64,000 nucleotides of DNA from Megaustenia siamemsis (lineage: Eukaryota; Mollusca; Gastropoda; Stylommatophora; Ariophantidae). The position numbers were made by a program, and so were the translations under genes. The stretch's first letter is position 1. Every line of letters starts with the position of its first letter. The notes below the pieces were generated by a model. The model had not been told where the DNA came from, did no database searches, and was given only the letters and a program-made list of their open reading frames with translations. Positions 12,001 to 60,647 of the stretch are shown in pieces. Location: the NCBI GenBank assembly GCA_032433765.1, contig JAVIAB010000124.1, forward strand, positions 76,564,119-76,628,118, read 5' to 3'.

Positions 12001-15000
12001 ACATTTAGTTTGTTTATTAATTTTTGAGTTTCTTTGACCAGTCACTATAAATTTCAGCCATTTGTGTGTGTGTATGTCACTTTCCCATTTATTAAAATTT
12101 TATTACAATACCACATCTATCCATTTCTTCATATGTGCTTGAATGTTCAAACTTGTCACAACTTCCTCCTGTCAGCTCATAACTGGAATTCAGTTCCTGA
12201 GAGGGACTGAAGTGAAAACATGAAGTTTATTGCCCAATCAATGACATACCTTTTATTTATGTGCAGTTAGATATGTTGTTAATTTTTTCTTTGTCTTTTT
12301 TTTTGTTTCCGGAAAACAAATTTAATTGACAAGCATTTTGTTTTGCCTCATATTTATAAATATACAAGATCTGTGGCTTCCCTCTTATCTTTCTTTTTTT
12401 TATCTGAATATGCTTCTATGGATGATTGACAGTTTGTTTCAGAGATCACAAATACATGAGAATTAATACAATAAATATAGGCTAGTAATATACAGGATAT
12501 ACAACATAGCTGAAAGCATTTTTATGTATTTGAAATATTTGAGAGGGACTATTCTATCAACCTTTTGAGCCATAGTTGGCCCATAGGGCATAGACTCAGA
12601 TACTCTTTACCTGTTTTTAAATTTTCTTTCTACTAGAGGGACTACTAAAGAAATAATTTCATGCTGTCAAGATAATTAGATGAGAAATGAGACTTGAAAG
12701 TGAATTTCCTTTTGCTCTGAGTTAAGGCAAGTCAGTTACAAACAATTCATAAAATAAAGACACTTGGAGAGTATTGATAACAGCAGACAGCCTTCACTTC
12801 AAAGGATAATAATTATATAGTTTTGGTACTCAAAGAGTTAACATCACCGTTTGACTTTGCCCGTTTCAGTACAGAACCTGGGTGCAGGAGTGGCAGCCAT
12901 TAGTGTCGGAGACTCTGATGTTAGGGGATTGTTGAGGTTTGTTCAGGTAAACTCAAGTACCTGTCTTGTGGAGGGAGCTGTGGACAAACTGCCCACATCA
13001 GAGCCTGTATTTCTGACAGTTCATGAAACTGGTGATGTGTCTGATGGCTGCAACAGTTGTGGGTCTCTCTTCAAGAAAGAAGATAATACCAACAATGTAA
13101 GTGGTGCACAAATCATGTGTTAGAGGTAATGTTTATCTAGATATTAAACTTGCAACTACACAACTAAATAGTTGACATTGTAGCACATTGTAGAGTTTTC
13201 CTGTTTGAAACAATTCCAATGCATTGTTCAAGTAAAAACTTGGGCCCAAACACCTTATGGCTACTGGACTGGGAATGCTGCCTTTATTCTCCAGTCCCAC
13301 AGAAAACTGCAGAAATGGGGACAAGTAGTGGGGTAGTTTATTGAAAGATTGTACAGCCTAACTAAAATTGATGAATCCCTTTGTGGTGGAGGCTGAAGTT
13401 GCTTGGGCGTTGGAAGTCATTCCCAACCCAGGTTTCCCTGCTACTCAGTGGATTAAACAAAGTAGGTCACATACTAGAATGTGATGCCTAGATCAGCATC
13501 ACAAGCCTTAGTTCAAAAAAACCTTCTTCCAGAATTCTGCATTAGGAAAATGTTTCCACAAATGTTATTCCATTGTAAAGGGGTTAAATTGGCCCTCAGA
13601 AAAATGTATAATTTTCTAAAATAATCAATTATATTATTACATATCCTAACATGTTCCTTTGAAATAAAATATCATTAAAATACAAAATACATTTATAACA
13701 TGAAAATTTGTTATAGATTTAGAATAAACATTTTGCCACTAGTATTTTTGTGTATATGGCAGACCACCGTGAGATTGGAGCCTCATCACGTAACACTCCA
13801 AAGAAAGCCATGGAGAGAAATTCTAACTATTGTTTTAAGAACGAATTAAAAATAGCTACATGGAATATTAGGACCTTATACCAACAAGGAAAATTAGAAA
13901 ATCTAATGGTAGAAGCAGAGCGATTAAACATTAGATATCTTAGGCATATCAGAAACAAGATGGAACATATCAGAACAAAGTGGATACATACAAGACGATA
14001 AATGTACATTTATATATTCAGGTAACACAACAGAACATCAAAGAGGAGTAGGCATTCTAATAAAACGAGAGCTACAAAAATATATAAATACCCACTGGAC
14101 ATACAATGATAGGATTATACTAGTAAAAATGAAGGCAAAACCATTTGACATAGCAATAATACAGACATACGCACCTACTCAAGACTATACAGATGAACAA
14201 ATAGAGGCATACTATGATGATCTAAACACAGTTATGAAGCAAGTGAAATCATCAGACATCTTGATTATAATGGGTGACATGAACGCTAAAGTAGGAAAAG
14301 GTAAATATAAGACCACTATAGGAAATAATGTTTTAGGAAAAAGGAATAACAGAGGAGAAAGATTAATACAATTTTGTGAAGAAAACAAACTGATAATATG
14401 CAACACCTTTGAGCAAGAGAAAAGGAAATTAAACACATGGAAAAGCCCTGGAGACAGGAAGAGGAATCAAATAGATTACATGATGATAAAAGACAGATTC
14501 CGGAACAGCGTCAAGAAAGCCAAAACCTACCATGGAGCAGATGTTAATTCAGATCACATTCCTGTAATGATAAAAATGAAAATCAAATTAAAGAGTAACA
14601 AACAAAAAACTAATTCAGCAACACCAATAGATATAACAGCGTTAAACCAGAAAGATGTACAAGAAACTTATACTGTACAAGTAAAGAACACATATCAGAA
14701 GCTGCTAGAAGAGGGGATTGAGCAGTACAGAAGAGAAAATCCTGAGGAAAAAGTCACAACAAAATGGCAATGCATAAAAAACAGCATGCAAGAATCCTGC
14801 AACACCTTGCCCAAAAAGGAAAGTAACAAAAAACAAAAATGGACAACTGACAAAATCTTAGAAAAAATGGAAGAAAGAAGACAAGCGAAAAACACTGCCA
14901 GATACAAGGATATAGACAATGAAATATGGAGAATGTGCAAAAAGGCAAAAGAAGACTGACTCAACCAAAGATGTCTAGAAGTCGAAACTATGGAAAGTAG

Positions 15001-18000
15001 ACAAAACTATTAAGAGAGATGCACACAGAAATAAAGAGAATGACTAATAAAGACAAAAAGCTGCAGGAAACGGATGTATTGCAAACAAAAAGGGAAGAAT
15101 GCTAACAGACAACAAAGATATAATAGATAGATGGCAAGAATATATAACAGAATTATTTCATGACGAAAGGGACAAAGAGCCAGACATAAAATGTACATAC
15201 AACTATAAAATCTTGAAATCTGAAGTAGAAAAAAGCTATAAAAACAATGAAAAAGGGAAATGCAATAGGACCTGACAATCAAACATCAACTTTCATTGCG
15301 TTGCCTAAAAAGAATGGTGCAGTTGAATGCAGTGATTTCAGAACAATAAGCCTAATGAGCCAGGTAACACACATTTTACTAAAAGTTATACAGGGAAGGA
15401 TTCAGAATAAAATCAATACTGAATTAGATGAGCAACAATTTGGATTCACGAAAAACAGTGGCACAAAAGAAGCCATATTTAGCATGAGAACATTGATTGA
15501 AAAGTACATAGAAGTAAACAAACCATATGCCTGCTTCATAGACTACACCAAAGCTTTCGATAGAATACACCATAACCAACTTATAGACTGCATAAAGGAT
15601 ATAAATCTTGACGACACAGACATACGACTAATATGTAATTTGTACTGGAAGCAAACAGCAATAATAAGATATAACAAGGAGAACTCTACACCCATGGACA
15701 TAAAAAGAGGAGTAAGACAAGGACGCATCCTATCACCAAGCTTGTTCAATCTATACACTGAGCAAATCTTTAAAAAACATCTTAGAGATGCCAGGCCTAA
15801 ACATTAATGGAAAGATAGTCAATAACCTAAGATATGCTGATGATACTGTTCTACTAGCAGAAAATCCTAAAGACCTACAACAATTGCTTAATGTGATAAA
15901 CATAACAAGCAAAAAATATGGACTAGATATGAATATCAAAAAGACTAAAACTATGATCATAAACAAAGAAAATTCTCAAGACTTACAATTAAATATCACA
16001 GTTGAGGGAATACATCTGGAGACAGCCCATAGCTACAACTACCTGGGACATACTATAACCAATGATGGAAAATGTAAAATTGAAATAAACAAAAGAATAG
16101 GTATGGCAAAAAGTAATTTTAATGCCATGAAAAATATACTAACAACAAAACAAATATCAGCAGGGCTGAAACAAAGAATGACAAAATGTTACATCTCCTC
16201 AATATTCCTGTATAGTGCAGGAAAACACGCACCAAAATGGACGCACAGAGATGGGTGCTTGTTTGCGTTTGAACAAAGCCCAACAGCCAAGATCTGAATT
16301 TGCAGAATTTCGTTCATCTGAATTTGCAGAATTCCGTTCATTCTCAACGGTGGCCGTTATAGTTTAGCTTTTGCTAGCACAATGCCTGGTGTATAAGCTC
16401 GGACCACCATCTTATCGTGCTTTCTCCCTGCATCGCAGACTAAACGGACGCTGTCTAAATTAACCAAATTAGTAAATAACCTTGATAATAGCGAATAACA
16501 GCCACTGCTATTGCTGCTGAGGTAACGCCAAATGAGATAGGTCTTGAGAAATGTTTGCCAAGTCCAAGGCTGATGTTCTTGCACATTATAACCTACTTTG
16601 ACTTGGTAGTAACGTTGCTACTACCGCTGATCGCCAATACTGTCATGCTCTTCACGATCGTTCTGTCCATCATACACAAGTCCCTGTGGAAGAAGCTCAG
16701 TGGCCTGCCGATGCTGGAAGTTTCCGAGCTGAAACCGATCAACGATCCTAGGTGGAGCTCCGTGCGAGCTAGCGCCCAGGTTCATGTGGATAGGATGCTC
16801 TTTGCCTTGTCTCTGTCTTACATCATCATGAACGCACCCAGCCATGTGGCCAGACTGTACTATCAGAAGCGGACTCAAGATTCAGGGGACATGAAATTGA
16901 CATTCTCTGAAGGTCTTATCCGGCTGATCTTTCTGCACGTCGGCCACGCCCAACAAGCCTGCAAGTTTTGGATCTTCGTGGTCGTCAGTAGAAACTTTAC
17001 CAAGAACCTCAGACAAACTTTAGTGGAAGTTACCAAGTGTATATGTTAGTCGTAGCTCATATCTTGGTGGGTGTATGTGCTGGCCATGGCTGATATCTTG
17101 GTGGGTGTATGTGCTGGCCATGGCTTATATCTTGGTGTGTGTCTGTGCTGGCCATGGTTCATATCTTGGTGGGTAACTGTGCTGGCCAGGGTTCATATTT
17201 TGGTGTGTGTCTGTGCTGGCCATGGTTCATATCATGGTGTTTTTCCATGCTAGCCATGGCTTATATTTTGATGTGTTTCTGTGCTAGTCATGGTTCATAT
17301 CTTGGTGTGTTTCCATGAAACCATGGCTCATATCTTAATGTGTTTCTGTGCTAGCCATGGCTCATATCTTGGTGTGTTTCTGTGCTGGCCATGGCTCATA
17401 TCTTGGTGTGTGTCATGTGAGTCATATCTCATATCTTGGTGTGTGTCCGTGTTAATCATGTCTCATATCTTTGTGTATGTCTGTGTTTAGTCATATCTCA
17501 TATCTTAGTGTGTATCTGTCTTAGTCATGTATCATATCTTTGTGCGTGCATGTCTGTGTTAGTCATATCTCATATCTTTGTGTGTGCTTGTCTGTGTTAG
17601 TCATATCTCATATATTTGTGTGTATGTCCATGCTAGTCACATCTCATCTTTGTGTGTGTCTGTCTATATTAGTCATGTCTCATATCTTTGTGTGTTTGTG
17701 TTTAGTCATATCACATATAGTTGTGTGTGCATGTCTATGTTAGTCACATCTCCTATCTTTAACTTTGTGTGTGCATGACTGTGTTTAGTCATATCTCATA
17801 TCTTAGTGTGTGTATCTGTGTTAGTCATATCTCATATTTTAGAGTGTGTCTGTGCTAGTCACATATCATATCTTAGTGTGTGTTTGTGTCTGTGTTAGTC
17901 ATATCTCATATTTTGGTGTGTGTCAGTGTTAGTCATGCCTCATATTGTTGTGTGCATGTCAGTGTTAGTCACATCTCATATCTTTGTGTGTGCATGTCTG

Positions 18001-21000
18001 TATTAGTCACCTCTAGTGACTCAGGCAGATGATGCTCGTAAACCTGGGAGGGAAGACCATCTAAGGGCAGAATCCCCCTACAGAAAAGAAAATCTACTGC
18101 CTTGCAGGAAGATTGGGGACAAAGGCTAAGGAAAGCAAACTGAACAAAATGCTGGCTGAAATCGGATGCACTGGGCCACTGGCGCAGAACACAGTGCAAC
18201 GTTTTAACAGGTACTCAATCAGGGTGGATCTAACAGACTCTAATTATGATGTCAATTCACTTAAACAGACAGCTGTCTTCATGTGAGAGTCTGGAATCCT
18301 ACTCTGATTGAGCCCTGATCGCAGAGAGAGAGAGAGAGAGAGTATAGTGCAGAAACATGGACATTAGACAAGAAAACAGAACAGAAAATTGAAGCCTTTG
18401 AAATGTGGATTTATAGAAGAATGGGTAGAATTGGATGGAAAGAAAAGAAAACAAATGATGAAGTTTTAAAACAACTGAAAATAAAAAAGAGAACTACTAA
18501 ATACAATTAAGACAAGACAAATGAAATTTTTGGGGCATGTTAAAAGACACAACAGCAAGTAATAACTAAAGTAATATTGGAAGGGAAAATACAAGATAAA
18601 AGAGGCAGAGGCAGATCAAGACTAACATGGACGAGTAACATCAAAAGATGGACAAGTCAATCTATGACAGCCTGCACCATCAAAGCAATAAACAGAGTAG
18701 AATGGCGATCCATGGTAGCCAACTTTCATTGCGGAGAAGGCACTCGATGATTTTTGTGTAAACTCTGATGGTTCTCTTATGTTCCTGTAGGCCTGTTTTT
18801 GCCAAAACTATCCTCAAGTTTTGTCCTTTTAGTTACAGCTGTAAGCAAATGAAAAATATCTTATGCAACAAATCTATGTCAATAGAAGAGAGAAAGAGAG
18901 TTCATCGGTATTATATAGAACCATTTCTGACCTATGGAAGCGAATCATGGACAATAGACAAACAAATGAAAAGACAATAAGAGGCCACAGAGATGGGATT
19001 TCTCAGAAGAATGTTGAAAGTTCCCTGGACAGCTAAAAAGACCAATGAAGAAATTCTCAAAGAGGCCAACACAAAAAGGGAGCTCCTAAAAAACATCAGA
19101 AAGAAACAATGAACATTTTTTGGGCACATCATGAGAAGAGGAAAGTTGGAATACTTGGTTACAACTGGCAAAATAAAAGGAAAGAGAGATTGTGGACGAC
19201 AAATAGAGAAAATACTGTATAGCTTGGTGTCATGGCATGGAAAACTGTCAACAACAGAACTGATACGATGCACTGTTTATAGAAGATTGTGAAGGTCATG
19301 ATCGCTTACGCCAACCGGTATGGCACATGATGATGAAGATGTAAGCGTATGCATATTTGATTGATTCTAGTTCTTACATGTTGTTGACTACACTAAAGAG
19401 AAGAAAATAAAAGAAATAACCACATGTGCTCCATGAGATGCTGAAGAGATAATGTTGTTCATCCTTGTCATCAAGATGGAGTGATCATCTTTAGACTGAG
19501 AATTCACCACTGTCAACTCATATACCACTTTTATGGTATTTTTTTGTTGTTGTACATTTGATAGACATCAGTGATTAACATTGGGTTTCTCATTGCTTCC
19601 AACATTCTTATAAAAATGTAATTTTAAGGTGAACAAAGAAGTATCATTAGATTTATACTGTTGCTGTTACTAGCAAATCTGTTTTATCATTTATTGTGAT
19701 TCAAGTAATAGTCTTTATCATTTATTGTAATTCAAGTAACAGTCTTTATTATTTATTGTAATTCAAGTAACAGTCTTTATTATTTATTGTGATTCAAGTA
19801 ACAGTCTTTATCATTTATTGTGATCCAAGTAATAGCCTTTATCATTTATTGTGATTCAAGTAACAGCCTTTATCATTTATTGTGATCCAAGTAACAGTCT
19901 TTATCATTTATTGTGATTCAAGTAACAGCCTTTATCATTTATTGTGATTCAAGTAATAGCCTTTATCATTTATTGTGATTCAAGTAACAGTCTTTATCAT
20001 TTATTGTGATCCAAGTAACAGTCTTTATTATTTATTGTAATTCAAGTAACAGTCTTTATTATTTATTGTAATTCAAGTAACAACCTTTATCATTTATTGT
20101 AATTCAAGTAACAGTCTTTATTATTTATTGTAATTCAAGTAACAGCCTTTATCATTTATTGTAATTCAAGTAACAGCCTTTATCATTTATTGTAATTCAA
20201 GTAACAGCCTTTATCATTTATTGTAATTCAAGTAACAGCCTTTATCATTTATTGTAATTCAAGTAACAGTCTTTATTATTTATTGTAATTCAAGTAACAT
20301 TCTTTATTATTTATTGTGATGCAAGTAACAGTCTTATCATTTTCTTGTTCTGTAGTCCTTGTGCATGAATGTCAGTGTGAAGCTTGTACTATGAATATCT
20401 AAAGAGACATACTTTAAATGACACAATTTGTTAAAACTTGATATTATGAATTAACTTCCTGCATGTGTTGAACTCAGCAGACTTTCAGTGGGGTTCTGAA
20501 ACAGCTCACCCCAGATCAGGATAGGAGAGCAGAGTTCAGGATAGCCATGCCAGACTTCAAGCTGTCGGATATCATTGGGCACTGTGTGGTTGTTCATCAA
20601 GGGAGCCACAGAGACGTTGAGCTTGACAAGAGTAAAAGGTACGGGCCTATGTTTAGTTCTGTTTTGGAGTGGGAGATGCTGATTTAGTTAAGTGCAAAGT
20701 TTTGTACTGAGGTCTAAGTTAAGTACAGAGTTTTGTACATTTTACTGAGGTCTAAGTTCAGTATAAAGTTTTGTACATTGTACTGAGGTCTAAGTTAAGT
20801 ATAAAGTTTTGTACATTGCACTGAGGTCTAAGTTAAGTACAAAGTTTTGTACATTTTACTGAGGTCTAAGTTAAGTACAGAGTTTTGTCCATTGTACTGA
20901 GGTCTAAGTTAAGTACAAAGTTTTGTACATTGTACTGAGGTCTAAGTTAAGTACAAAGTTTTGTACATTGTACTGAGGTCTAAGTTAAGTACAAAGTTTT

Positions 21001-22367
21001 GTACATTGTACTGAGGTCTAAGTTAAGTACAAAGTTTTGTACATTGTACTGAGGTCTAAGTTAAGTACAGAGTTTTGTCCATTGTACTGAGGTCTAAGTT
21101 AAGTACAAAGTTTTGTACATTGTACTGAGGTCTAAGTTATGTACAAAGTTTTGTACATTGTACTGAGGTCTAAGTTAAGTACAGAGTTTTGTCCATTGTA
21201 CTGAGGTCTAAGTTAAGTACAGAGTTTTGTCCATTGTACTGAGGTCTAAGTTAAGTACAAAGTTTTGTACATTGTACTGAGGTCTAAGTTAAGTACAAAG
21301 TTTTGTACATTGTACTGAGGTCTAAGTTATGTACAAAGTTTTGTACATTGTACTGAGGTCTAAGTTAAGTACAGAGTTTTGTCCATTGTACTGAGGTCTA
21401 AGTTAAGTACAGAGTTTTGTCCATTGTACTGAGGTCTAAGTTAAGTACAAAGTTTTGTACATTGTACTGAGGTCTAAGTTAAGTACAAAGTTTTGTACAT
21501 TGTACTGAGGTCTAAGTTAAGTACAAAGTTTTGTACATTGTACTGAGGTCTAAGTTATGTACAAAGTTTTGTACATTGTACTGAGGTCTAAGCGAATGGG
21601 CATTGTCCTAGTAAATTGATCAGAACAAAATGCAGAGACCATTATAAACATAGCAAAGGGACGTCATAATCATCTTTTATATGCCAGATTGTTTTAAAGC
21701 TTTTCTTGTGAATAAAACAGACAAGTAAGCTCATCACTTATATAGAATACTAGTAGCACATGTTTCATATGCTTAATAAAGTACATTTTTTTTACAAATG
21801 TTATGTATTTTGTTAGCTTTTAGAGTTTGTCTCATTAGATTTTGCTAATCTTATGTTTGGTCATTAATTATTGCTTTCCATATGAGGTCTACATGTTTAT
21901 CGAAATATGAAAGCAAATGAATTGAAGTAAACATGCACCATTGTTTTTAATAGTGTGAACATTTATACAAGCAACAGTTGTGAAGTTTATTTTGTCTTGT
22001 GTGATTGATACAGGGAAATCATCAATTCATTAGAAAAAGTTCACCCTCTGATGAACAATAAGAATGTTTGTTAAAACAGACATTTAGAAAAGCAATGAAG
22101 CTGTTTTTACAAAATAGATTCTGTAAATAGATTCTGTAAATAGATTCTGTAAATAGAATTGTAAATTAGCTTTGTAATATATAGATCAACATTGTTGTGT
22201 ATGATCAGTCTAGTTTGATTAACTGGGTGTTCTTGTCTTTCAGGCTAGCATGTGGAATAGTGGCAAGAGCATCAGGAGTATTCCAGAATTCCAAACGTTT
22301 CTGTGCTTGTGATGGGGTCACTATCTGGGAGCAAAGGCATAGAGACATTGAAAATGGGAAACTCTGA
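24..22367 (+). CDS. CCS: Copper chaperone for superoxide dismutase, six exons
   Basis: CCS delivers copper to Cu/Zn superoxide dismutase and helps form its disulfide, mainly in the cytosol. Exons 24-62, 3043-3115, 8498-8632, 12870-13096, 20481-20638 and 22244-22367 all have GT/AG borders and compatible phases (0,1,1,0,2) and join to 252 codons including TGA. Residues ~14-83 are the HMA-like domain I, ~84-210 the SOD-like domain II (QNLGAGVAAI, CNSCG) and ~211-251 domain III (RLACGIVARASGVFQN, then CAC). Domain III keeps the CXC copper motif (C231, C233). Domain I reads MRSPCC where the family has MxCxxC, so the first motif cysteine is serine. The segment holding HGG...RHxGD in other CCS proteins is not found between exons 4 and 5. 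The protein is about 23 residues shorter than human CCS. Introns are loaded with transposons and minisatellites. Identification is by recognition of conserved residues; the small first exon is the least certain. Confidence 0.93.
140..769 (+). mobile_element. RTE-type LINE fragment, 3' end
   Basis: Broken reading frames spell the RTE C-terminus (HRCYIEPIL, LTYGSESWT-like, VPWTAK). The copy ends with the family tail CCTACGCCAACCGG...CACATGATGATGATG. It is 5'-truncated and carries an extra ~120 bp near 455-580. The 18845-19340 copy belongs to the same subfamily. Confidence 0.85.
1350..2160 (+). mobile_element. Decayed non-LTR retrotransposon fragment with RNase H
   Basis: Around 1420-1480 the frames give LERVPNEGLQAILGCTR, typical of the region after the reverse transcriptase in I/R1/jockey-type LINEs. 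Around 1985-2045 another frame gives PGHACVHGNEIADKLAG, the C-terminal RNase H signature. Stops and frameshifts are frequent. This is a different family from the RTE copies, which lack RNase H. Confidence 0.75.
2190..2370 (+). mobile_element. RTE reverse-transcriptase fragment
   Basis: The segment is closely similar to 15650-15805 of the RTE at 13755, covering the stretch around RRGVRQG...SPSLF and ending at MPGLN. It is short and broken. Confidence 0.8.
2500..2925 (-). pseudogene. DDE transposase remnant, Tc1/mariner-superfamily type
   Basis: The minus frames give NVSFHDTQLKPQLLQMVRQ, then PPPYCSHLNPIKLVWATVKG and IEYWKKYEE. These match the C-terminal third of the transposase at 6532-7540, including the catalytic-Glu region NPIxLVWAxVK, where Glu appears as Lys here. 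It is a decayed second copy in opposite orientation. Confidence 0.8.
2930..3027 (+). mobile_element. RTE 3' tail
   Basis: Only the last ~100 bases of the RTE subfamily seen at 140-769 are present, ending CACATGATGATGATTG. It lies directly upstream of the CCS exon 2 polypyrimidine tract. Confidence 0.8.
3043..3115 (+). CDS. CCS: CCS exon 2 (HMA domain, copper-motif exon)
   Basis: The acceptor is TTCTATTTCAG and the donor GTGAG (phase 1). It encodes MEFAVEMRSPCCVDRV and on to KDVKG. The LINE 3' tail ending ATGATGATG lies only about 15 bases upstream of the acceptor. Confidence 0.93.
3451..4231. repeat. Minisatellite, 46- and ~54-bp units
   Basis: The unit contains AACAGGAGGGTAGGTACTCA and AAGACAAGAGAATAAATC. 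It exists in a 46-bp form and a longer form with an extra AAGTGAGA-like block, interspersed. About 16 copies lie in CCS intron 2. Confidence 0.95.
4232..4862. other. Intronic sequence with a LINE-3'-like motif
   Basis: There is no coding evidence. At 4738-4770 lies CTGAGGAAAGC...GGCCGAAA, a hairpin-type motif also seen at the 3' ends of other repeats in the window. The open frames here look like chance. Confidence 0.4.
4863..5160 (-). mobile_element. RTE fragment, 3' end, antisense
   Basis: On the minus strand the segment reads GATCACCAATGCCAGCGGGC near the end, followed by ATGATGATAC, and resembles the 63 kb RTE tail. It is 5'-truncated. Plus-strand open frames across it are shadows. Confidence 0.75.
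5161..5850. other. Intronic sequence, nothing recognised
   Basis: AT-rich at first, with a slightly GC-richer stretch at 5535-5800 and a short GA-rich run at 5817-5840. I see no conserved frame. Confidence 0.4.
6532..7545 (+). pseudogene. Transposase pseudogene of the TIR element
   Basis: The N-terminal part (MKVDDFDKDVNRREI...) looks like the winged-helix region of a widespread invertebrate IS630/Tc1-like family. IVYLDES holds the first catalytic Asp, CLVMDNASYHN the second and NPIELVWAKVK the Glu. The gene is dead: a frameshift near 6830 after LDES, another in the A-run near 7275, and a stop at 7384. The last readable part is IEYWRKYDDH. Confidence 0.9.
7537..8109. repeat. 288-bp direct duplication inside the TIR element
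   Basis: Copy 1 (7537-7824) and copy 2 (7825-8109) both begin ATAACAGCTGTTAACCTC and are nearly identical. Copy 2 has a few substitutions and one small deletion near its end. The first copy contains the 3' end of the transposase region. Confidence 0.95.
8498..8632 (+). CDS. CCS: CCS exon 3 (rest of domain I)
   Basis: The acceptor is GCTGCAG and the donor GTAAGT, phase 1 to 1. It encodes GVKSLDVDLAKQRLVIEG and on to AAILLGHGSS, equivalent to the second half of the HMA fold and linker of CCS. Confidence 0.93.
8860..9150 (-). mobile_element. LINE fragment, 3' end (family D)
   Basis: The segment shares the end motif CTGAAGA-GGC...GGCAGAAA and the downstream pattern (GTCAGCCTCxTTTTCTxTTACC) with 41285-42020, where the reverse-transcriptase C-terminus is readable. 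It is heavily decayed. Confidence 0.6.
9151..10100. other. CCS intron 3, no recognised element
   Basis: AT-rich intronic sequence. Short open frames exist on both strands but none has a recognisable domain. Confidence 0.4.
10101..12016. repeat. 30-bp minisatellite, ~64 units
   Basis: The unit is TTTACCTGGAAGCCCACAAC plus ATTTAGTTTG, with variant positions A/T (GGAAG/GGATG) and C/G (CACAA/CAGAA). Some 26-bp units (CAGCATTG) cluster at 11520-11890. Because 30 is divisible by three, frames stay open on both strands, which gives illusory proteins. Confidence 0.98.
12017..12869. other. CCS intron 3, 3' part
   Basis: AT-rich intronic sequence. At 12548-12640 there is a short antisense LINE 3' end (TTGAGCCATAGTTGGCCCAT...GGGCATAGACTC) of the same family as 41285-42020. 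Otherwise nothing was recognised. Confidence 0.5.
12870..13096 (+). CDS. CCS: CCS exon 4 (SOD-like domain II, first part)
   Basis: The acceptor is GTTTCAG and the donor GTAAGT (phase 0). It encodes QNLGAGVAAISVGDSDVRG, LTVHETGDVSDGCNSCG and a short acidic-basic end. The HVHQ seen in many CCS and SOD proteins is TVHE here. Confidence 0.95.
13097..13743. other. CCS intron 4, 5' part
   Basis: No repeat or coding match was recognised. I looked here for the missing CCS segment (HGG...RHxGD) and did not find it. Confidence 0.4.
13756..14959 (+). pseudogene. RTE endonuclease (EEP) domain, frameshifted
   Basis: The first part reads LKIATWNIRTLYQQGKLENL, the N-terminal APE-type endonuclease motif. 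After a frameshift near 13980-14120 the long frame 14129-14959 holds IIQTYAPT, IIMGDMNAKVGK, RNQIDYMMI and NSDHIPV, the catalytic Asp/Asn and Asp-His motifs of the fold. The enzyme nicks target DNA for target-primed reverse transcription. Motifs are intact within each piece. Confidence 0.93.
15247..16220 (+). pseudogene. RTE reverse transcriptase, frameshifted
   Basis: Frame 15247-15807 has [37 protein letters not shown] and GVRQGRILSPSLFNLY. A frameshift near 15790 moves to the frame starting [19 protein letters not shown], with the YADD catalytic motif, and reads into the thumb. The coding sequence is cut at 16220 by the composite retroposon. Confidence 0.95.
16489..17049 (+). pseudogene. 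Class A GPCR fragment, TM4-loop to C-terminus
   Basis: The open frame gives ECL2 with a Cys (EKCLPSPRLM), then TM5 (TYFDLVVTLLLPLIANTVML), an ICL3 of ~40 residues, TM6 (MLFALSLSYIIMNAPSHV) and TM7 with FLHVGHAQQACKFWIFVVV. It resembles invertebrate peptide (FMRFamide-receptor-like) receptors. NPxxY is not evident. TM1 to TM4 are missing or unreadable between the leader ATG and 16489, and the first frame after the ATG stops after 11 codons. No intron interrupts TM5-TM7. It sits inside the composite retroposon and ends at TAG immediately before the VNTR. Confidence 0.85.
17050..18005 (+). repeat. VNTR of composite retroposon copy 1
   Basis: Degenerate ~34-bp units occur, first of the type GCTCATATCTTGGTGTGTGT with GCTGGCCATG, later GTTAGTCATATCTCATATCT with GTGTGTGCATGTCTG. 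The same order of unit types occurs in copy 2, so the array belongs to the element. Short open frames through it are artefacts. Confidence 0.93.
18006..18342 (+). mobile_element. SINE-like tail of composite retroposon copy 1
   Basis: It starts AGTCACCTCTAGTGACTCAG and ends GATCGC(AG)n. It is collinear with 24736-25081, with small indels. It contains GCTGAAATCGGATGCACTGG, a block also found in SINEs at ~53580 and, diverged, ~48575, plus a decayed form of the pseudoknot motif (18095-18137), where the CAATC half of stem B is deleted. Confidence 0.88.
18353..18749 (+). pseudogene. RTE 3' end after the insertion
   Basis: This is the continuation of the element: ETWTLDKKTEQK, IEAFEMWIYRRMGRIGW and [13 protein letters not shown], then broken frames. 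It ends with GAGAAGGCACTCGATG. The family tail (GCAGAGATGGCAC...ATGATGA) is also seen at 51700-51735 and antisense at 52395. Confidence 0.9.
18845..19340 (+). mobile_element. RTE fragment, 3' end (subfamily of 140-769)
   Basis: Frames give ERVHRYYIEPFLTYGSESWT, RRMLKVPWTAKKTNEEILKE and FFGHIMRRGKLEYLVTTGKI. It ends CGCCAACCGGTATGGCACATGATGATG. It is 5'-truncated, with frameshifts. Confidence 0.88.
19341..19681. other. CCS intron 4, unique stretch
   Basis: AT-rich sequence; nothing recognised. Confidence 0.4.
19682..20335. repeat. 31-bp minisatellite, ~21 units
   Basis: The unit is AGTCTTTATCATTTATTGTA plus ATTCAAGTAAC, with variants ATTATT/ATCATT and GATTC/GATCC/AATTC. It lies ~145 bp upstream of CCS exon 5. 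Confidence 0.97.
20481..20638 (+). CDS. CCS: CCS exon 5 (SOD-like domain II, second part)
   Basis: The acceptor is CTCAGCAG and the donor GT at 20639. It encodes a short leader, then RRAEFRIAMPDFKLSDIIGH and VVVHQGSH. A second AG at 20488 is out of phase with exon 4, so 20481 is preferred. It joins exon 4 directly in frame, leaving no place for the usual HGG...RHxGD segment. Confidence 0.88.
20681..21594. repeat. 38-bp minisatellite, ~24 units
   Basis: The unit is TAAGTTAAGTACAAAGTTTT plus GTACATTGTACTGAGGTC. It contains the 16-bp near-palindrome GTACAAAGTTTTGTAC. It starts ~40 bp downstream of CCS exon 5. Confidence 0.97.
21595..22243. other. CCS intron 5, unique part
   Basis: AT-rich, with a small triplication of TAGATTCTGTAAA at 22110-22150. 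Nothing else was recognised. Confidence 0.5.
22244..22367 (+). CDS. CCS: CCS exon 6 (domain III and stop)
   Basis: The acceptor TCTTTCAG continues the split Arg codon. It encodes LACGIVARASGVFQN, FCACDGVTIWEQR and ends at TGA (22365-22367). The C-terminal tail is shorter than in vertebrates. Confidence 0.96.
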
Positions 22368-22615
22368 ATGTTGATATGTGATGGTGGATAATGAGATGGT
22401 TGAAAGCTTCTTCTTCTTCTTAACCCTATGGATTTTAAGAAAAGGGAAATAACTCCACCAAAATATGTGACATGTCGACTTTAAGGTCATCCATTGTGTA
22501 TGGGGCACTCTCTTGTTGTAAAAGATAATTTTAAATTCATGTATTTCAAAGCCTACAGGAGATCAAGAATGTGTAGCAGGATATCTTTGTTATCATTGTA
22601 CCTATACATTAATCT
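22368..22615 (+). other. CCS 3' flank / probable 3' UTR
   Basis: Non-coding after the CCS stop. It ends in the left target-site copy ATACATTAATCT (22604-22615) of the next retroposon. No clear AATAAA was noted in this stretch, so the polyadenylation site may lie further on or be non-canonical. Confidence 0.4.
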
Positions 22616-22631
22616 GATGGGACGCACCAAG

Positions 22632-23984
22632 ATGGAAGTTCGTCAAGTTCTAGCCGTAGTGTATACAATGGCTGATCTTGAACATCGCGCTGTCTGTTGT
22701 CACAGCGAGTTGGGGATTGTTAGAATTGTAACCGGGTTTGAATAATTGTTTGTGCACATTTCGTAACCACCTAGATCAAGTCTTTATTCTGCTGGCTTTG
22801 TTTGCGACATTGGAAGCTAATGACCTAACTGCCTAACTTGTGTAGACGGTTGGTTCGGGGCAAATTGTGCGTTGCAGTGTCACTGCTAAAATCGCTCAGC
22901 TTGTGACAGGGCTACAGGGACATGCACAAACGGTGACAGTTGTCGGCGAGAGCGTTTCGGACCCCAGTGTCAGTACTTGATCTAGTTTGCAAATACGCCT
23001 AGGGATCTGGACCTACAGATCCGGACAGTTCATGGTCTAATCACATGTTACGGATGAAGGGGCGATAGTTGCAAATATCTGCTCCATCTACATTGGCGGG
23101 GGTCGGAATGTGGCTCTCAAACAGAACGCAAACCAGACCGACACACTTAATGCTTGTTAATACAGTGGACGGGTGTGGACCAGGCCGCAGTTAATGGCAA
23201 AACAAAGACCAATCTTTATGACAATGACTGCACACACACACACAATTGAGAAGTGGAACCAATTCTGTTTACTGGTATCTGAACTTTGACACGTCCCAGA
23301 AGACTCACACCATTCGAATTTATCATCGAGCTAGCACTATGATCGGGTAAAGAATGACATTCCAAATGCTTTCTCTGACAGTGGCGGTGTAGTGTTCCAG
23401 TATAATGATATATCATACCCAAATATTTCTGTGAACACAATTGTAGTCACCATACAAGCGACAATGGCACACAGTAAGTTTGAGTTCTCACCGACCTTTT
23501 CGCAGGACGAGAGTGCACTGACGGTGTGTGAGGTGCAAACATTACAGACACCTATTGTCTGGACGGGCATTCTTGGTCGTTTTGTACAGTGTGGTGGGAG
23601 TAGCAAAGCTGCACCGTCATCATCGGTACGTGTCCATTCAACTGTTCACATGGGATTTATGGACACGACTGCTCCGGGTCTTGTCTTAGTGTTAGGTCCT
23701 TATGTGAGGAAAATCCGGAAAATGCCAACATTGCAAACATCCTGACTATACCTGTGATGACACTTGTTCTGATGGTAATTTTGGGTTACAGTGCGAACAG
23801 ACGTGTTCTGATGGCTGTGACATCATATGTGACACAGAACGAGCAGACTGTACGCGCAAGGAAGCATACTACGGGCCAGACTGCACTCTCAAATGTCCTG
23901 ACCACTGTTTCAACGACACCTGTGAACAGTCAACCGGGATCTGTTCCTGCAAGGGAACGTTCTACGGGTCAGACTGACCTCTAA
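22632..23984 (+). pseudogene. Multi-EGF / fucolectin-like secreted protein retro-copy, broken
   Basis: The leader ATG opens a 37-codon frame with a weakly hydrophobic start (MEVRQVLAVVYTMA). Downstream pieces in shifting frames give an EGF-like unit (CVDGWFGANCALQCHC), then GGGRNVALKQNANQTDTLNA, CTHTHT and YLNFDTSQKTHTIRIYHR, typical of fucolectin/F5-8-type domains in molluscan scavenger-receptor-like proteins. LTVCEVQTL follows, then 23720-23977 encodes CDDTCSDGNFGLQCEQTC and CPDHCFNDTCEQSTGICSC. Stops and frameshifts are scattered. No introns interrupt ~1.2 kb, although such genes normally have many, consistent with capture as processed RNA. Parent gene unknown. Confidence 0.75.
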
Positions 23985-24134
23985 ATCTCCGTACAACTGT
24001 TTGGAGATATCTGTTAACAGTTCATGGGGGCCGGCGTCTCGTATGTCGATGATTCCCACGTTAAGAAGAGTCTGCCGACTACAACAAACCCAAACATATG
24101 GATACCTTAATGTGTACTGGATATTTTCTTTCTG

Positions 24135-24735
24135 TGCTGGACATGGTTCATTTCTTGGTGTGTTCATTGCTAGCTAAGGCTCATATCTTGGCTTGTGGTG
24201 TGTGTGTGCTGGCCATGGCTCATATCTTGGTGTGTGTCATGTTAGTCATATCTCATATCTTGGAGTGTCCGTGTTAATCATGTCTCATATCTTTAAGTGT
24301 GTATGTGTTTAGTCATATCTTAGTGTGTATCTGTGTAGTCATGTGTCATATCTTTGTGTTTGGGGCTAGTGATGTCTCATATCTCTGTGTGTATGTTTAT
24401 GTTAGTCATATCTCATATCTTTGTGTGTGCATGTCTGGTATGTCACATCTCATATCCGTGTGTTTGCACGGCTATGCTAGTCACATCTCATATCATTGTG
24501 TGTGCCTAGCTATGTGGTCATATCTCATATCCTTGTGTGCATGTCCATGTTAGACATGTGTAATTTCTTTGTGGGTGCATGTCTATGTCAGTCATATCTC
24601 ATATCTTTATGTGCATGTTATGTTAGTCTTGTGTTATATATCTTGATGTATGCCAGTGTTAGTCATACCTGTATCGCTATGTGCATGTATGTGTTTATCA
24701 ATCTCATATCTTTTGTGTGCATGTCTGTGTTAGTC
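24135..24735 (+). repeat. VNTR of composite retroposon copy 2
   Basis: Degenerate ~34-bp units contain GTTAGTCATATCTCATATCT and TTGTGTGTGCATGTCTG. It begins with GCTGGACATGG/GCTGGCCATGG-type units as in copy 1. It is about 350 bp shorter than the copy 1 VNTR. Confidence 0.92.
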
Positions 24736-25081
24736 ACCTCTAGTGACTCGGGCAGATGGTGCTCGTAAACCTGGGAGGGCCGACCATCTAAGGGCAGAAT
24801 CCCCCTACAGAAAAGATCACCTGCTGCCTTGCAGGAAGATTGGGGACAATCAAAGGCTAGGGAAAGCAAACCTGAATAAAATGCTGGCTGAAATCGGATG
24901 CACTGGGCCACTGGCGCAGAACACAGTGCAACGTTTTTAACGGGTGTTCAATCAGAGTGGATCTGGCAGACTCTAATTGTGATGTTCTGTTTGTAACACA
25001 CCTAACCTGACAGCTGAGTTCATGTGAGTAGCTGGAATCCTACTCTGATTGGGTCCTGATCGCAGAGAGAGAGAGAGAGAG
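24736..25081 (+). mobile_element. SINE-like tail of composite retroposon copy 2
   Basis: It begins CACCTCTAGTGACTCGGGCA. A 7-bp stem AGATGGT (24754-24760) / ACCATCT (24783-24789) is intact here. The pseudoknot motif follows (24820-24867), then GCTGAAATCGGATGCACTGG and TGATCGC(AG)n. It is collinear with the tail of copy 1 and better preserved. Confidence 0.9.
24820..24867 (+). ncRNA. Pseudoknot RNA motif in retroposon tail
   Basis: Hairpin A is CCTGC, loop TGCCTT, GCAGG. Hairpin B is GATTG, loop GGGA, CAATC. Then A, AAGGC and TAGGG. AAGGC (24853-24857) is fully complementary to GCCTT in loop A (24826-24830), giving a pseudoknot. The same architecture occurs at 60535 and 60602 with compensatory stem changes. 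Function is unknown; catalytic or reverse-transcriptase-binding roles are possible. Confidence 0.7.
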
Positions 25082-25359
25082 ATACATTAATCTAGTACTG
25101 TCTTCACCCTAGAATACATCGCCTATCACGAATCATATTTTGATGACACCTTTGTAAAATTTACTAACCCTAATTGTTACATTTGGAATTCAAAAAATAG
25201 TATTTTCTTTGAACTTTTGCTACACAGCTGCGTTTACACTTGGAGAGAAACAGGATCGGATGCTGTAATCATTTCCTGGCTTATGTTTGATTTATGGCCT
25301 GAAATTCAAACGCCTGGCGCTGTGGCTACCAGAGGTGTTACGTTGTCTATTCACGCATT

Positions 25360-25738: not shown

Positions 25739-27330
25739 TAAGTCTCTGTGCATATACGTTAGTAAGATATGTTCTGGAGTCTCTGATGTGTTTGTAAAAA
25801 CATGTGCTGGAGTCTCTGTGATGTGTTTGTAAAACATGTGCTGGAGTCTCTGTGATGTGTTTGTAAAACATGTGCTGGAGTCTCTGTGATGTGTTTGTAA
25901 GACATGTTCTGAAGTCTCTGTGATGTGTTTGTAAAACATGTTCTGAAGTCTCTGTGGATGTGTTTGTAAGACATGTTCTGGAGTCTCTGTGATGTGTTTG
26001 TAAAACTTGTTCTGGAGTCTCTGTGCTGTGTTTGTAAAACATGTGCTGGAGTCTCTGTGCTGTGTTTGTAAAATATGTTTTGAAGTCTCTGTGATGTGTT
26101 TGTAAAACATGTTCTGGAGTCTCTGTGATGTGTTTGTAAAATTGTTCTGGAGTCTCTGTGCTGTGTTTGTAAAACATGTGCTGGAGTCTGTGATGTGTTT
26201 ACACATGTTCTGAAGTCTCTGTGATGTGTTTGTAAGACATGTTCTGGAGTCTCTGTGATGTGTTTGTAAAACTTGTTCTGGAGTCTCTGTGCTGTGTTTG
26301 TAAAACATGTGCTGGAGTCTCTGTGCTGTGTTTGTAAAACATGTTCTGAAGTCTCTGTGATGTGTTTGTAAAACATGTTCTGGAGTCTCTGTGATGTGTT
26401 TACACATGTTCTGAAGTCTCTGTGATGTGTTTGTAAAACATGTTCTGAAGTCTCTGTGATGTGTTTACACATGTTCTGAAGTCTCTGTGATGTGTTTACA
26501 CATGTTCTGAAGTCTCTGTGATGTGTTTGTAAGACATGTTCTGAAGTCTCTGTGATGTGTTTACACATGTTCTGAAGTCTCTGTGATGTGTTTGTAAGAC
26601 ATGTTCTGAAGTCTCTGTGATGTGTTTACACATGTTCAGAAGTCTCTGTGATGTGTTTGTAAGACATGTTCTGAAGTCTCTGTGATGGGTTTTACACATG
26701 TTCTGAAGTCTCTGTGATGTGTTTGTAAGACATGTGCTGGAGTCTCTGTGATGTGTTTGTAAGACATGTTCTGAAGTCTCTGTGATGTGTTTGTAAAACA
26801 TGTGCTGGAGTCTCTGTGATGTGTTTGTAAGACATGTGCTGGAGTCTCTGTGATGTGTTTGTAAGACATGTTCTGAAGTCTCTGTGATGTGTTTGTAAAA
26901 CATGTGCTGGAGTCTCTGTGATGTGTTTGCAAAACATGTGCTGGAGTCTCTGTGATGTGTTTGTAAAACATGTGCTGGAGTCTCTGTGCTGTGTTTGTAA
27001 AACATGTGCTGGAGTCTCTGTGATGTGTTTGTAAAACATGTTCTGAAGTCACTGTGATGTGTTTGTAAAACATGTTCTGAAGTCTCTGTGATGTGTTTGT
27101 AAAACATGTGCTGGAGTCTCTGTGATGTGTTTGTAAGACATGTTCTAGAGTCTCTGTGATGTGTTTGTAAAACATGTGCTGGAGTCTCTGTGATGTGTTT
27201 GTAAGACATGTTCTGAAGTCTCTGTGATGTGTTTGTAAGACATGTTCTGGAGTCTCTGTGATGTGTTTACACATGTTCTGAAGTCTCTGTGATGTGTTTG
27301 TAAGACATGTTCTTAAGTCTCTGTGATGTG
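25739..27330. repeat. 34-bp minisatellite, left part
   Basis: The unit is AAGTCTCTGTGATGTGTTTG plus TAAAACATGTTCTG, with variants (GAAG/GGAG, shortened TTTACACATG units). Since 34 mod 3 is 1, the minus strand reads three alternating peptides in one long open frame, an artefact. The array continues at 29509 after the hAT insertion. Confidence 0.97.
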
Positions 27331-29508
27331 TAGGGCTCTGATTTTTATGACCTAAAAATCCTGAAATATGACATGCAAATATGACCTAAAAAAGGCAAAA
27401 TATGACTTAAAATATGCCGAAATATGACCATAAGGTTTTTCTCATTTATGAACCAAAAAAAAAAAAAACGCAAATTATTATTGTTTGCATGTTTTACGCA
27501 TTACATAGTAGTCATAGTACCTACATAGTAGTAATACTTAACAAAGCATGTATAAAAACACTTACAACATTTATTCCTCAGTTTTCATTGTTTGTACAAT
27601 TGCAACCGACAACAACATACATTTTTAGATTTTCAAATTTAAACGATCGTCGATTGTCACTGAGAATTGTTTTATATTTTGAAAACTTCGTTCTACATCA
27701 CATGATGTCAAAGGGGCAAATCTAAATAATGTCAGATCATTTGCTTTTGAAAAACTTTGTTCTACATCACATGATGTCACAGGGGCAAATCTAAATAATG
27801 TCAGATAATTTGCTGAAAGTTCAAGTTCATTCTTTTGAAATGTTGCATGTTTACCACTAAGTATGTCTGCAATTTTGCACAATGAGAAATAACCAGAATT
27901 TCTATGAAGAACACTTTCTAATTTACTTTAATCCTGTTGCTTACTTCACCACGTGATCCATTTATTTCTGTTTGAATTTGTTTCACAATATCTAATGCAT
28001 CATAAAGTGCAGTCCCTTCGCTTTCCAGACGTTTTATTGCTTTTGAAATTGCAGAAAAGTTTGACTTTATATAACTCAGATTTTGTGATAGTCTGGTAGA
28101 AAATAAGCTTTGCACTGCTTGTATTGATGTTGCGTCGTCTTTGTCTAGGGCATTAAATATTTTATCCAGTGTTGAATAGTTTTCACAGTAATACTCTACA
28201 CTCTACAGCGTCCAGCCATGTACCCCAACGTAGTGGGTAGGTTGTGGAGGAAGTGGTAGTTGAGGATCTTCTTCTTTGAATTTTTGTACTCGAAGAGGAG
28301 CCTTGATGAATATTTTTTTCCCATTTGAAATAACTTGTCCACATCAGGAAAATTACCTCGAACTTCCTCAGCTACTCAAATTTTTCCTTAAAGTGGATTC
28401 ATCTGGGATAGGATGGCTAGTGTATTTCTCCAGAAATTGTCGGAAATATTGATTTTGCAATTTATTTAAAGGGATATTTGATGAAACCATCATATGACAC
28501 AAATCTTTATAAAAAACCGGTCTCTGTGTTTCCCGAAGAAGAAGAGGAAGTAGCAGAACATTTTTCAAGTAATAAACTTTGTCTTCCTTCCATTTCAGAA
28601 AGTCTACTTAAACATTTCATATGTTTAGAAGTATTGCAATGTTGTTGCACATTAAACCGTTTTCCAGCTGTAACCTTGACCTCACACAGTGTACAGTACA
28701 ATATTTCTCCATCGGTACTAAATACTTTTGAACCAAATTCCTGCACAAATTTACGCAACTTTGCACCAATAGAATTAGACACTTTAGGCATTGTAAAGCA
28801 AAGTTATTCCAGTGAATCAACCATAAACAATATAACTATTATATAACTATGAGCTAGAGCACAAGATCATGTAGTCTATTTGTAGTCAGTCACTGTTGCA
28901 AATGGCAAATTAATAATTGTAACATACAAATGGGCGCCAAACGGTTTAAAATGAAACTGGAAGATTTAACAAATCCAGGAATATTCGCTCCTGACGTTGA
29001 AACATTTGAAATTGTTTCCTACAATTTACTTTCGAAACAAAACCCAGAAAATTCTTTTGAAGTATTGAGCGGATGTCACTCCCTTTTTTATTCTCAGATG
29101 CCGACTGACACAAAGAGTTGACTGATGTCTTCCCTCCCTACAGTCGCATGAAAGACACACATGCATATTCACTAATACACACATTCAGAAATATAGCCAA
29201 TCCTCACAATTTGTCTCTAAACATAGTTTAAGATGTGCTAACATTGATAAGCAAACGGAGTACACCAGAAAGTTGAGTACACCAGAAAATATGCAAAATA
29301 TGACCGAAATATGACCGAAATATGACCTAAATCTCCAATTCAGGCAAAATATGACCTCATCAAAATTATGGTCAAAATATGCATTTATATGACAAATAAA
29401 AAACAGCTTACAATTGTTCAGAAATGCTTGAAACATGTAGAAATTAACTTAAAACTGAAAATATACTTCAGTAAAAAAATATGACATTTCATGAAAATCT
29501 GAGCCCTA
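27331..29508 (-). mobile_element. hAT DNA transposon inserted in the minisatellite
   Basis: The ends TAGGGCTCTGATTTT and AAAATCTGAGCCCTA are inverted repeats (14 of 15). The 8-bp duplication GTGATGTG (27323-27330, 29509-29516) fits hAT. Subterminal regions carry many AAATATGACC-type motifs, probable transposase-binding sites. The coding remnant runs on the minus strand. Confidence 0.93.
27625..28791 (-). pseudogene. hAT transposase remnant (BED finger and dimerisation end)
   Basis: The frame from 28791 has a BED-type zinc finger (YCTLCEVKVTAGKRFNVQQH, then C, H). It continues via a frameshift to [21 protein letters not shown] piece at 28115-27918 follows, then the C-terminal hAT dimerisation motif LFRFAPVTSCDVEQSFS, present twice because of a small tandem duplication (27665-27800). 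The catalytic core is not readable, so the copy is non-autonomous. Confidence 0.85.
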
Positions 29509-29716
29509 GTGATGTGTTTGTAAGACATGTTCTGAAGTCTCTGTGATGCGTTTGTAAGACATGTTCTGAAGTCTCTGTGATGTGTTTACACATGTTCTGA
29601 AGTCTCTGTGATGTGTTTGTAAGACATGTTCTGGAGTCTCTGTGATGTGTTTGTAAGACATGTTCTGAAGTCTCTGTGATGTGTTTGTAAGACATGTTCT
29701 GGAGTCTCTGTGCTGC
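29509..29716. repeat. 34-bp minisatellite, right part
   Basis: Six more units of the 25739 array follow the hAT element, starting with its target duplication GTGATGTG. Confidence 0.95.
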
Positions 29717-40478: not shown

Positions 40479-41284
40479 ATCTTTGGGAAAGGATCAGTTT
40501 TAGATCAAAGTTAGATTAGTTTGGAGTCTACAAAGGACTTTATAATTGAGCAGTAGTTGTGAACAGTACAATGAGATAAAGTATTAGCCATTAGAAAAGT
40601 TAGCTAGTGAAGTGTGATGATTAAATATGAGTATTTGAGGGAGTGGAAGAATTCATAATCATGTGGACCACCAGGTAGTATCAACCTTTAGTGGTATGAG
40701 AATACTTTACCCATGTATTTCCTTGAGGTGTTGTTCAGATGTTCTAATCAAGAAACAGCAAGAAACGTGATATAGTGTTATATACACCCCAGGCTTTCTG
40801 TCATCTATTGACAAGTATGAAAAAACACTGAGAAGTGAAGGACACTGGAAGACTTGATGCAAGATAATTCATAGTGACAGTAATATAAAGAACCGTTTTT
40901 GAGAAAACATGGAATAACACAAATCATAAAGAACAAGCATTATTATTAAAAAAAAAACAAAATCCTTACAAAACTAAGTAGTTTGGGCTATAGCCCTTTG
41001 TGATTAGACTTACAATTAGAGTTGTGCCCATCTGTGAATAGACTTACCAGTTAGTGTTGTGCCCATTTGTGAATAGACTTACCAGTTAGTGTTGTGCCCA
41101 TCTGTGAATAGACTTACCAGTTTTAGCACTGTCTCAGTGTCTATGTTCCAATTTGCAGAAGACTTTGACATAATTAAATTTGATAATATCTTTACTGAAT
41201 GACTCATGTTTTACACAGTCATCAATCTCTATTAATCTGAGTTGCAAATGTATGCTTTTGAACTGTCAGTCTATCTATCTATCT
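40479..41284. other. Unique sequence with a small triplication
   Basis: No gene was recognised. A 45-bp unit with GTGAATAGACTTACCAGTTA is repeated three times at 41010-41120. Confidence 0.5.
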
Positions 41285-60149: not shown

Positions 60150-60534
60150 ATTCAGGAGATGCCACTAATTCTTACTGAAAAAGGGAAAAGAGAGAGCAGG
60201 CTGAGAGTCTAGGTCATACCAACTTCAACCTAAGTAAGGGCTGGCTGAACCAATTCAAAGTTTGACATGGAGTTGTAATGAAAGTTGTCTGCAGTGAGGC
60301 TGGGTCATTTCAAAAGAAACAACTGATAAGTTAAAGCAAAGAGAACTACAGGAAATTCTCAAGCAATCTGAACCAAAAAATATAAACAATGTGGATGATA
60401 CAGGCCTCTTTCATAAGTGTGAAAACCACACATTTGTTGAAAAAGGAGAAGAATGCAGTTGTTACAAGATTCCAAAAGACAGAAGTTCTATTTTGATCGC
60501 TTACCAATATAAATGGTTAAATACCTGTGGCTGC

Positions 60535-60582
60535 CCTGCTGTCTTGCAGGTAAGCTCGGGAGAGTAAAAGGCTAAGGGAGGG
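60535..60582 (+). ncRNA. Pseudoknot RNA motif, RTE 5' UTR copy 1
   Basis: Hairpin A is CCTGC, loop TGTCTT, GCAGG. Hairpin B is CTC, loop GGGA, GAG. Then TAA, AAGGC and TAAGGG. Loop GTCTT (60541-60545) pairs with AAGGC (60568-60572) using one G-U. It lies 17 nt from the element 5' end. Confidence 0.7.
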
Positions 60583-60601
60583 TACCCTGAAGTAAAACAA
60601 C

Positions 60602-60647
60602 CCCACTGCCTTGTGGGTGAGACTTTTTAGTCGAAGGCTAGCGGAGC
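60602..60647 (+). ncRNA. Pseudoknot RNA motif, RTE 5' UTR copy 2
   Basis: Hairpin A is CCCAC, loop TGCCTT, GTGGG. Hairpin B is GACT, loop TTTT, AGTC. Then G, AAGGC and TAGCGGAGCC. Loop GCCTT pairs fully with AAGGC (60634-60638). Two stem-A pairs and the whole of stem B differ from copy 1 while pairing is kept. Confidence 0.7.

Follow-up and report, generated by a model that had tools for sequence, protein, structure and literature searches.

Insertions A (16221-18341) and B (22616-25081) probably represent two subfamilies within a single abundant family of composite retroposons with exchangeable 5' parts, spread in the manner proposed below. Capture of a 5' part was apparently rare and amplification frequent, and the cargo is fixed in each subfamily. 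Both insertions lie in the window, i.e., the whole stretch of 64,000 nucleotides that was analyzed. The original prediction is supported insofar as the element is an SVA-like, non-autonomous composite that shows insertion marks of LINE type and joins differing host-type cargos to one 3' module. Its further proposal, that mRNA is captured afresh between fixed ends at each insertion, is not supported, since the cargo recurs in many full-length copies and since C, a third 5' part, begins with another leader and is nearly devoid of VNTR sequence.

Two composite insertions and their surroundings

A and B show a common order of parts, a target site duplication (TSD) of their own, and differing cargos, and all of these predicted features were confirmed. 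The TSDs are perfect and measure 11 bp in A and 12 bp in B. Helitron or DNA transposon identity was rejected for both insertions on the basis of the TSD lengths and the AG end. The parts are located as follows.

16210..16220 (no strand): left TSD of insertion A, GTATAGTGCAG
16221..16254 (+): A leader, an imperfect unit pair ACGCACCAAAATGG + ACGCACAGAGATGG, putatively YY1/TISU-like
16255..16491 (+): A 5' stretch, also present in A-family copies
16492..17036 (+): A cargo, a GPCR piece from the end of TM4 to TM7
17037..18004 (+): A VNTR, 28 units of ~34 bp
18005..18322 (+): A tail, SINE-like
18323..18341 (+): A (AG)n end; the G at 18342 is assigned to the TSD
18342..18352 (no strand): right TSD of insertion A, GTATAGTGCAG
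22604..22615 (no strand): left TSD of insertion B, ATACATTAATCT
22616..22635 (+): B leader, containing ACGCACCAAGATGG; the element reaches further 5' in most copies of the family
22636..24130 (+): B cargo, coding sequence for EGF, a probable F-lectin-like part, and EGF again, with no frame intact
24131..24731 (+): B VNTR, 18 units
24732..25063 (+): B tail, SINE-like
25064..25081 (+): B (AG)n end
25082..25093 (no strand): right TSD of insertion B, ATACATTAATCT

The host site of A is a LINE, the flanks of which, when joined across the insertion, give a single unbroken reading frame. The window also contains exons of a gene for the copper chaperone for superoxide dismutase, on the + strand at 3043-3114, ~20480-20638, and ~22244-22367; A is located inside an intron of this gene and B about 250 bp beyond its stop codon. 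The last two exons, joined, match PDB 6fp6_B (E 7e-17), and the first exon was identified by eye. Minisatellites are plentiful (60 TRF rows, many of them overlapping, e.g., 10096-12016, 25741-27331, and 35052-40479), and a unit like that of 25741-27331 returns at 29509-29712. At ~476-580, a LINE piece holds an insert of ~105 bp with TTGGTT on both sides and CCAAAATGG inside, as seen by eye, and pieces of a Tc/mariner-like transposase occupy 6532-7294 (DDE_3, E 8e-7; HTH_Tnp_Tc3_2, E 7e-4, below the cut-off).

The 3' module is shared by the two insertions. Their tails, of ~320 bp, are 87% identical and both end in a pure (AG)n run; among the 327 sites compared between them, 31 are different (K2P 0.10). 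The order of the VNTR units in A and B gives a chain score of 348.5, the best of 1000 shuffles reaching 335, and without the last three units the score is 288.5, against at most 285.5 in shuffles. The unit order is thus conserved, and the array was therefore inherited along with the tail. The two arrays start at nearly the same phase of the unit (4 in A and 7 in B, of 34), and the start adjoins the same unit type, a CCATGG type, in both.

The tail may itself be a LINE-derived piece, a suggestion based on its alignment with a LINE 5' region and on an endonuclease-like frame that neighbors it in two loci, L035 and L039. The alignment is with the LINE 5' region at 60.5 kb (window 60520-60690) and scores 62 for the B tail and 57 for the A tail, the best of 500 shuffles, made for the B tail only, being 56. 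In L035 and L039, the 5' part of the tail stands immediately upstream of the endonuclease-like frame, a LINE piece whose Pfam match (E 0.021) is under the cut-off. Tail fragments of ~110-237 bp were seen in L035, L039, and L040, in the first two beside the LINE endonuclease-like sequence, and L035 and L040 have another upstream part in common (378 bp at 94%). Searches for the driving LINE, or for a LINE 3' end resembling the last 80 bp of the tail, found neither. Rfam gave 0 matches in the window, including none of 7SL/Alu type, and no classical SINE head (tRNA, 5S, or 7SL, with a pol III promoter) was detected there by ARAGORN or Rfam, to which diverged heads could escape. As just 1 of 89 predicted pairs in the tail structure is changed on both sides, we do not claim covariation. 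Tail patterns were absent from the viral contigs and prokaryote genomes searched, and the tail was absent from the phages searched.

With regard to the cargos, blastn gives no mutual match between A and B. The predicted lack of introns in both is putative, and no parent gene was found for either. The A frame is open for 185 codons, to 17046, and closed by a stop at 17047-17049 within the start of the VNTR; 1 of 20,000 shuffles is equally open. The predicted GPCR cargo is borne out by a match to a class-A receptor fragment, P0001 (35% identity, E 1.4e-16), which itself contains Pfam 7tm_1; the piece in A reached no Pfam family and had no PDB match. The cargo of B had been described as EGF/fucolectin-like, and the EGF half of this description stands, the repeats resembling those of the scavenger receptor SCARF1 (E 2.2e-5), whereas the F-lectin part gives a weak match, to FBP32 (E 0.28). 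No Pfam family was found for the B cargo, with its frames joined or in pieces, and it had no match in the protein collection searched; the NCBIfam search likewise gave no match.

The coding state of the two cargos differs from copy to copy. In the window, the B cargo has 17, 19, and 17 stops in the three frames over 413 codons, and it keeps an internal ATG frame of 93 codons, compared to 239-357 codons in the relatives L002-L008. Because it lacks bases at 17 sites where these seven fetched copies agree (over 22616-24130), it looks more broken than the family; it differs from L002 by 4 substitutions only in 1513 sites. The missing bases reflect either assembly indel errors or private decay. The receptor stretch of A contains 0-2 stops per copy, and sites deviating from the majority sequence number 56, 42, and 60 at codon positions 1, 2, and 3 (11 loci), a pattern close to neutral. 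Both cargos are likely passengers, although the 239-357-codon frames of the B relatives exceed the expectation for a long-dead passenger and count against this reading, and this long B frame may conceivably be subject to selection. For annotation, GPCR- and EGF-like matches in such genomes can be retroposon cargo.

Recurrence of the 5' parts in the genome

In the 2.59-Gb assembly (155 contigs), presumably that of an invertebrate and probably of a mollusc, an exact 29-mer of the tail has 5721+5521 = 11,242 matches, and the reversed control has 0. The B query gave 25 full-length rows, the window copy included, among the 40 scored of 7,230 candidates, with the 24 others 91-98% identical; the A query gave 23, again including the window copy, among the 40 scored of 9,708, with the 22 others at 83-100% (one 100% duplicate and 21 at 83-92%). 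Given these many full-length copies of each, A and B represent subfamilies with recurrent cargo. One locus, L010 (G000:C123:76667223-76669343), lies 87 kb away, repeats insertion A without any difference and shares its flanks, and is either a recent segmental duplication or an assembly duplicate. Twenty A and B loci were fetched, and 18 were testable for TSDs, L012 and L020 being without a leader. The best repeat was equalled by at most 5 of 200 shuffles in 15 of the 18, and in a few loci it lies some distance from the leader; the test failed in L002, L005, and L011. Since L010 duplicates L009, 14 of the 15 loci are independent.

The tails do not always carry the same GPCR or EGF sequence, a point on which the original prediction turned: A, B, and a third part, C, are all present. 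This result comes from tails in a list of 100, the first along contig C1, which were not selected by cargo because the tails are listed by position. For the first 20, the 4.5 kb upstream of each tail was read. B-type cargo is carried by five of them (L051, L052, L054, L055, and L059, with L054 and L055 looking duplicate) and A-type cargo by three (L062, L066, and L067), and in four (L053, L056, L060, and L064), C directly precedes the final half-unit of the VNTR, which the tail follows. Five more have a VNTR without recognized cargo (L057, L058, L061, L063, and L068), the TSD of L063 placing its start inside the VNTR, and three are fragments outside the composite design (L065, L069, and L070). 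The next ten tails (L041-L050), read with 1.5 kb upstream only, comprise five B (L042, L043 at 68%, L046, and the look-alikes L048 and L049), two C (L044, with a partial tail, and L050), and three with a VNTR and no recognized cargo in reach.

C has a different leader from A and B and, except for the last half-unit, no VNTR. Its 5' start reads GGGACTTCCGTTTCCAAGATGGCGG in L056 and GAACTTCCGTTTTCAAGATGGCGG in L060, directly after TSDs of 11 and 12 bp, and L064 is a copy with a shorter 5' end; TSDs of 11-13 bp are found in three of the four C loci among the first 20 tails. The ATG of C opens MADLVHVLSIAAENAPKV, followed by a stop, and the frame of the C part has Pfam matches below the cut-off only. 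The inferred source of C is a host first exon. When exact repeats of at least 10 bp were required, a TSD was recovered in 5 of the 17 (AG)n-bearing loci (L056, L059, L060, L063, and L064); this strict search missed that of L062, the same insertion as L018, in which a TSD had been found earlier. Its low yield and the three fragment loci weigh against our main explanation.

We propose that the spread of the element likely depends on a LINE, which would recognize the common tail and insert new copies, and that each 5' part would have been gained from a host transcript on one or a few occasions, to be amplified afterwards as a passenger. In the most likely mode of capture, host exons would have been spliced onto the VNTR-tail module at its 5' border; we prefer splicing in view of the single edge at which both A and B meet the module. 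Alternatively, the chimeras could have arisen when a LINE reverse transcriptase switched templates, from tail RNA to host mRNA and then to leader RNA. Such an origin does not require splice sites, and tripartite chimeras with direct repeats of 14-16 bp are known (PMC2104539), but identical junctions over hundreds of base pairs in many full-length copies need later amplification, and the common edge at which A and B meet the VNTR also speaks against it, so that we regard template switching as rather unlikely.

The leader and alternative origins

The leaders of A and B are identical at 15 of 20 positions, with ACGCACCAA exact. About 0.2-0.4% of window pairs drawn at random are as alike, and when the 5' regions were shuffled, 14 of 1000 trials did as well. 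Past the first 40 nt, no likeness between A and B was detected (798 of 1000 shuffles were equally good). Family copies corroborate the leader. In the A family, it consists of one or two ~14-nt units (GGACGCACCAAGAT) and then an GGGCGCTTG-like stretch, the window copy having a tandem pair of imperfect units (16227-16254). Besides the window, five of seven B loci carry GACGTCATGGGACGCACCAAGATGG, four of these five the full TGACGTCA, while L003 and L008 start later.

A leader of 16 nt followed by an ATG that opens the cargo had been predicted; the leader holds, with the tandem pair of A as a refinement, and the role of the ATG does not. In the window, the frame that starts at the leader ATG is closed after 11 codons in A and after 37 in B and therefore does not open the cargo. 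It ends after 30 codons in all four translated B relatives (L002, L003, L004, and L007), to which these early stops are common, so that the amplified B cargo is not readable from the leader, and it also stops early in the three A relatives translated. The leader ATG as the start codon of the cargo is thus ruled out by the window copies and seven relatives.

The position of the ATG suggests another role. It follows 16 nt in B (ACCAAGATGG) and in A (ACCAAAATGG, which is not AAS), and in the C leader, CAAGATGGCGG, it stands at 17-18 nt in both copies that keep the 5' end. TISU is an ATG-containing YY1 element within +30 of the transcription start, with AAS before the ATG and GCGGC after it (PMC2518114). 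For mouse L1, PMC10620060 reports GGTCGCCATCTTGGT as an extended form of the YY1 motif; its reverse complement opens with ACCAAGATGG, and the main start is 15 bp upstream. Judged by their sequence, the leaders of A, B, and C appear to fit the YY1/TISU geometry, and the leader is likely a promoter motif of this type; for comparison, CAARATGG occurs in 401 of 200,000 random 40-nt stretches of fetched C1 DNA. Transcription would then likely proceed from a short promoter-like leader at the element's own 5' end, and the ATG-bearing leader would act as a YY1/TISU-type element downstream of its own start site, so that each RNA copy would carry the promoter along.

According to a competing idea, which we find doubtful, the A/B leader has no promoter function and is a short VNTR fragment in inverted orientation, formed at the 5' end either while the element integrated or through pairing at a later time. 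The pairing of the A and B leaders with VNTR units does count against our main explanation as an alternative source of the leader: 13 of 23 leader matches with at most 3 mismatches fall on the VNTR minus strand, and the pairing energy of the B leader is reached in none of 3000 random windows and in 8 of 1474 windows from the cargo. However, the pairing energy of the A leader is ordinary (equalled by 70 of 3000 random and 52 of 775 cargo windows), the two leaders are closer to each other (13/15) than to their own VNTRs (12/15 and 11/15), and C, nearly VNTR-free, bears a motif of this kind too. A function for the pairing of leader and VNTR was set aside, since it is notable in B only.

The mechanism of the original prediction, in which a fixed leader and a VNTR-SINE module capture a processed mRNA at each insertion for translation from the leader ATG, would account for different cargos on one tail and for the TISU-like context of the B ATG. 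We consider it very improbable, as the copies of a subfamily repeat the same cargo, the leader ATG frames end early, and the C copies have another leader and next to no VNTR. Two ordinary processed pseudogenes, from genes whose 3' UTRs shared a VNTR-SINE repeat by chance, would explain gene-like cargo and TSDs, but the common leader, the lack of poly(A), and the many full-length copies of each make this scarcely credible.

Returning to a composite with exchangeable 5' parts, we tentatively suggest that the tail module persists by repeated takeover of host 5' ends, A, B, and C each having a different host-derived part with the same kind of TISU/YY1 tip, which could make the element a modular promoter pirate. 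The candidate tips are tandem ACGCACCAAGATGG in A, TGACGTCATGGGACGCACCAAGATGG in B, and ACTTCCGTTTCCAAGATGGCGG in C. Conceivably, such an element recruits the sole class of host promoter that an RNA copy can carry, that is, one downstream of its own start site. The hypothesis that retroposons gain promoters via host first exons with downstream promoter elements (YY1/TISU) becomes testable in this family.

Comparison with known composite retroposons

In the open-licence literature, which was the scope of our search, no such invertebrate family was found. The best-known relatives in design are SVA, LAVA, PVA, and FVA, the VNTR composite retroposons of hominoids (PMC6139936, PMC4859970, and PMC4432496). 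In some SVA subfamilies, the 5' part is the first exon of a host gene and brings a promoter with it (MAST2 in SVA_F1 and STK40 in pt_SVA_D6), and exons of 8 other genes occur in further transductions (PMC6139936 and PMC4859970). Like this group, the present element is non-autonomous and combines a short 5' repeat, a VNTR, a SINE-like 3' part, TSDs, and putatively host-derived 5' parts. The succession of 5' tandem repeat, VNTR, and SINE-like module is complete in A, the leader units of whose family recall the SVA 5' hexamer, while B has one leader unit and C is almost without VNTR; the TSDs are of LINE type. Unlike the SVA group, the present family resides in a different genome, its tail is related to a LINE 5' region, and up to 1.5 kb of coding-type sequence lies between leader and VNTR. 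The window and family copies end in (AG)n instead of poly(A), and an antisense Alu-like (7SL-derived) domain is absent from the window by Rfam. The element would work like SVA and, by these lineage-defining features (poly(A) and the Alu-like domain), is not an SVA.

The fusion of unrelated transcripts flanked by direct repeats of 10-20 bp is shared with the MINE and tripartite elements of Magnaporthe and with mammalian U6/B2-L1 chimeras (PMC2104539). There, 33 bipartite elements and one tripartite element were counted in a genome, whereas here fixed chimeras exist in many full-length copies; junctions private to each locus, as in template-switch retrogenes, are not what we find, the same chimeras recurring instead. 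Host genes have likewise been retrocopied in an invertebrate, the snail Oreohelix, where they come from a retrocopy scan of an LTR-dominated genome, and the portion of that report at hand (PMC9719178) does not mention a VNTR-SINE composite. The short, internally deleted CR1-derived elements of Lepidoptera, described in PMC6740152, offer a parallel for the tail, which may similarly consist of a LINE 5' piece and a LINE 3' end, with the difference that no LINE 3' end was matched here.

The known composites with trapped host exons belong to hominoid primates, and this family is a separate one in another animal. Its at least three exchangeable 5' parts and 11,242 exact tail matches would allow the steps of composite assembly to be compared across lineages.
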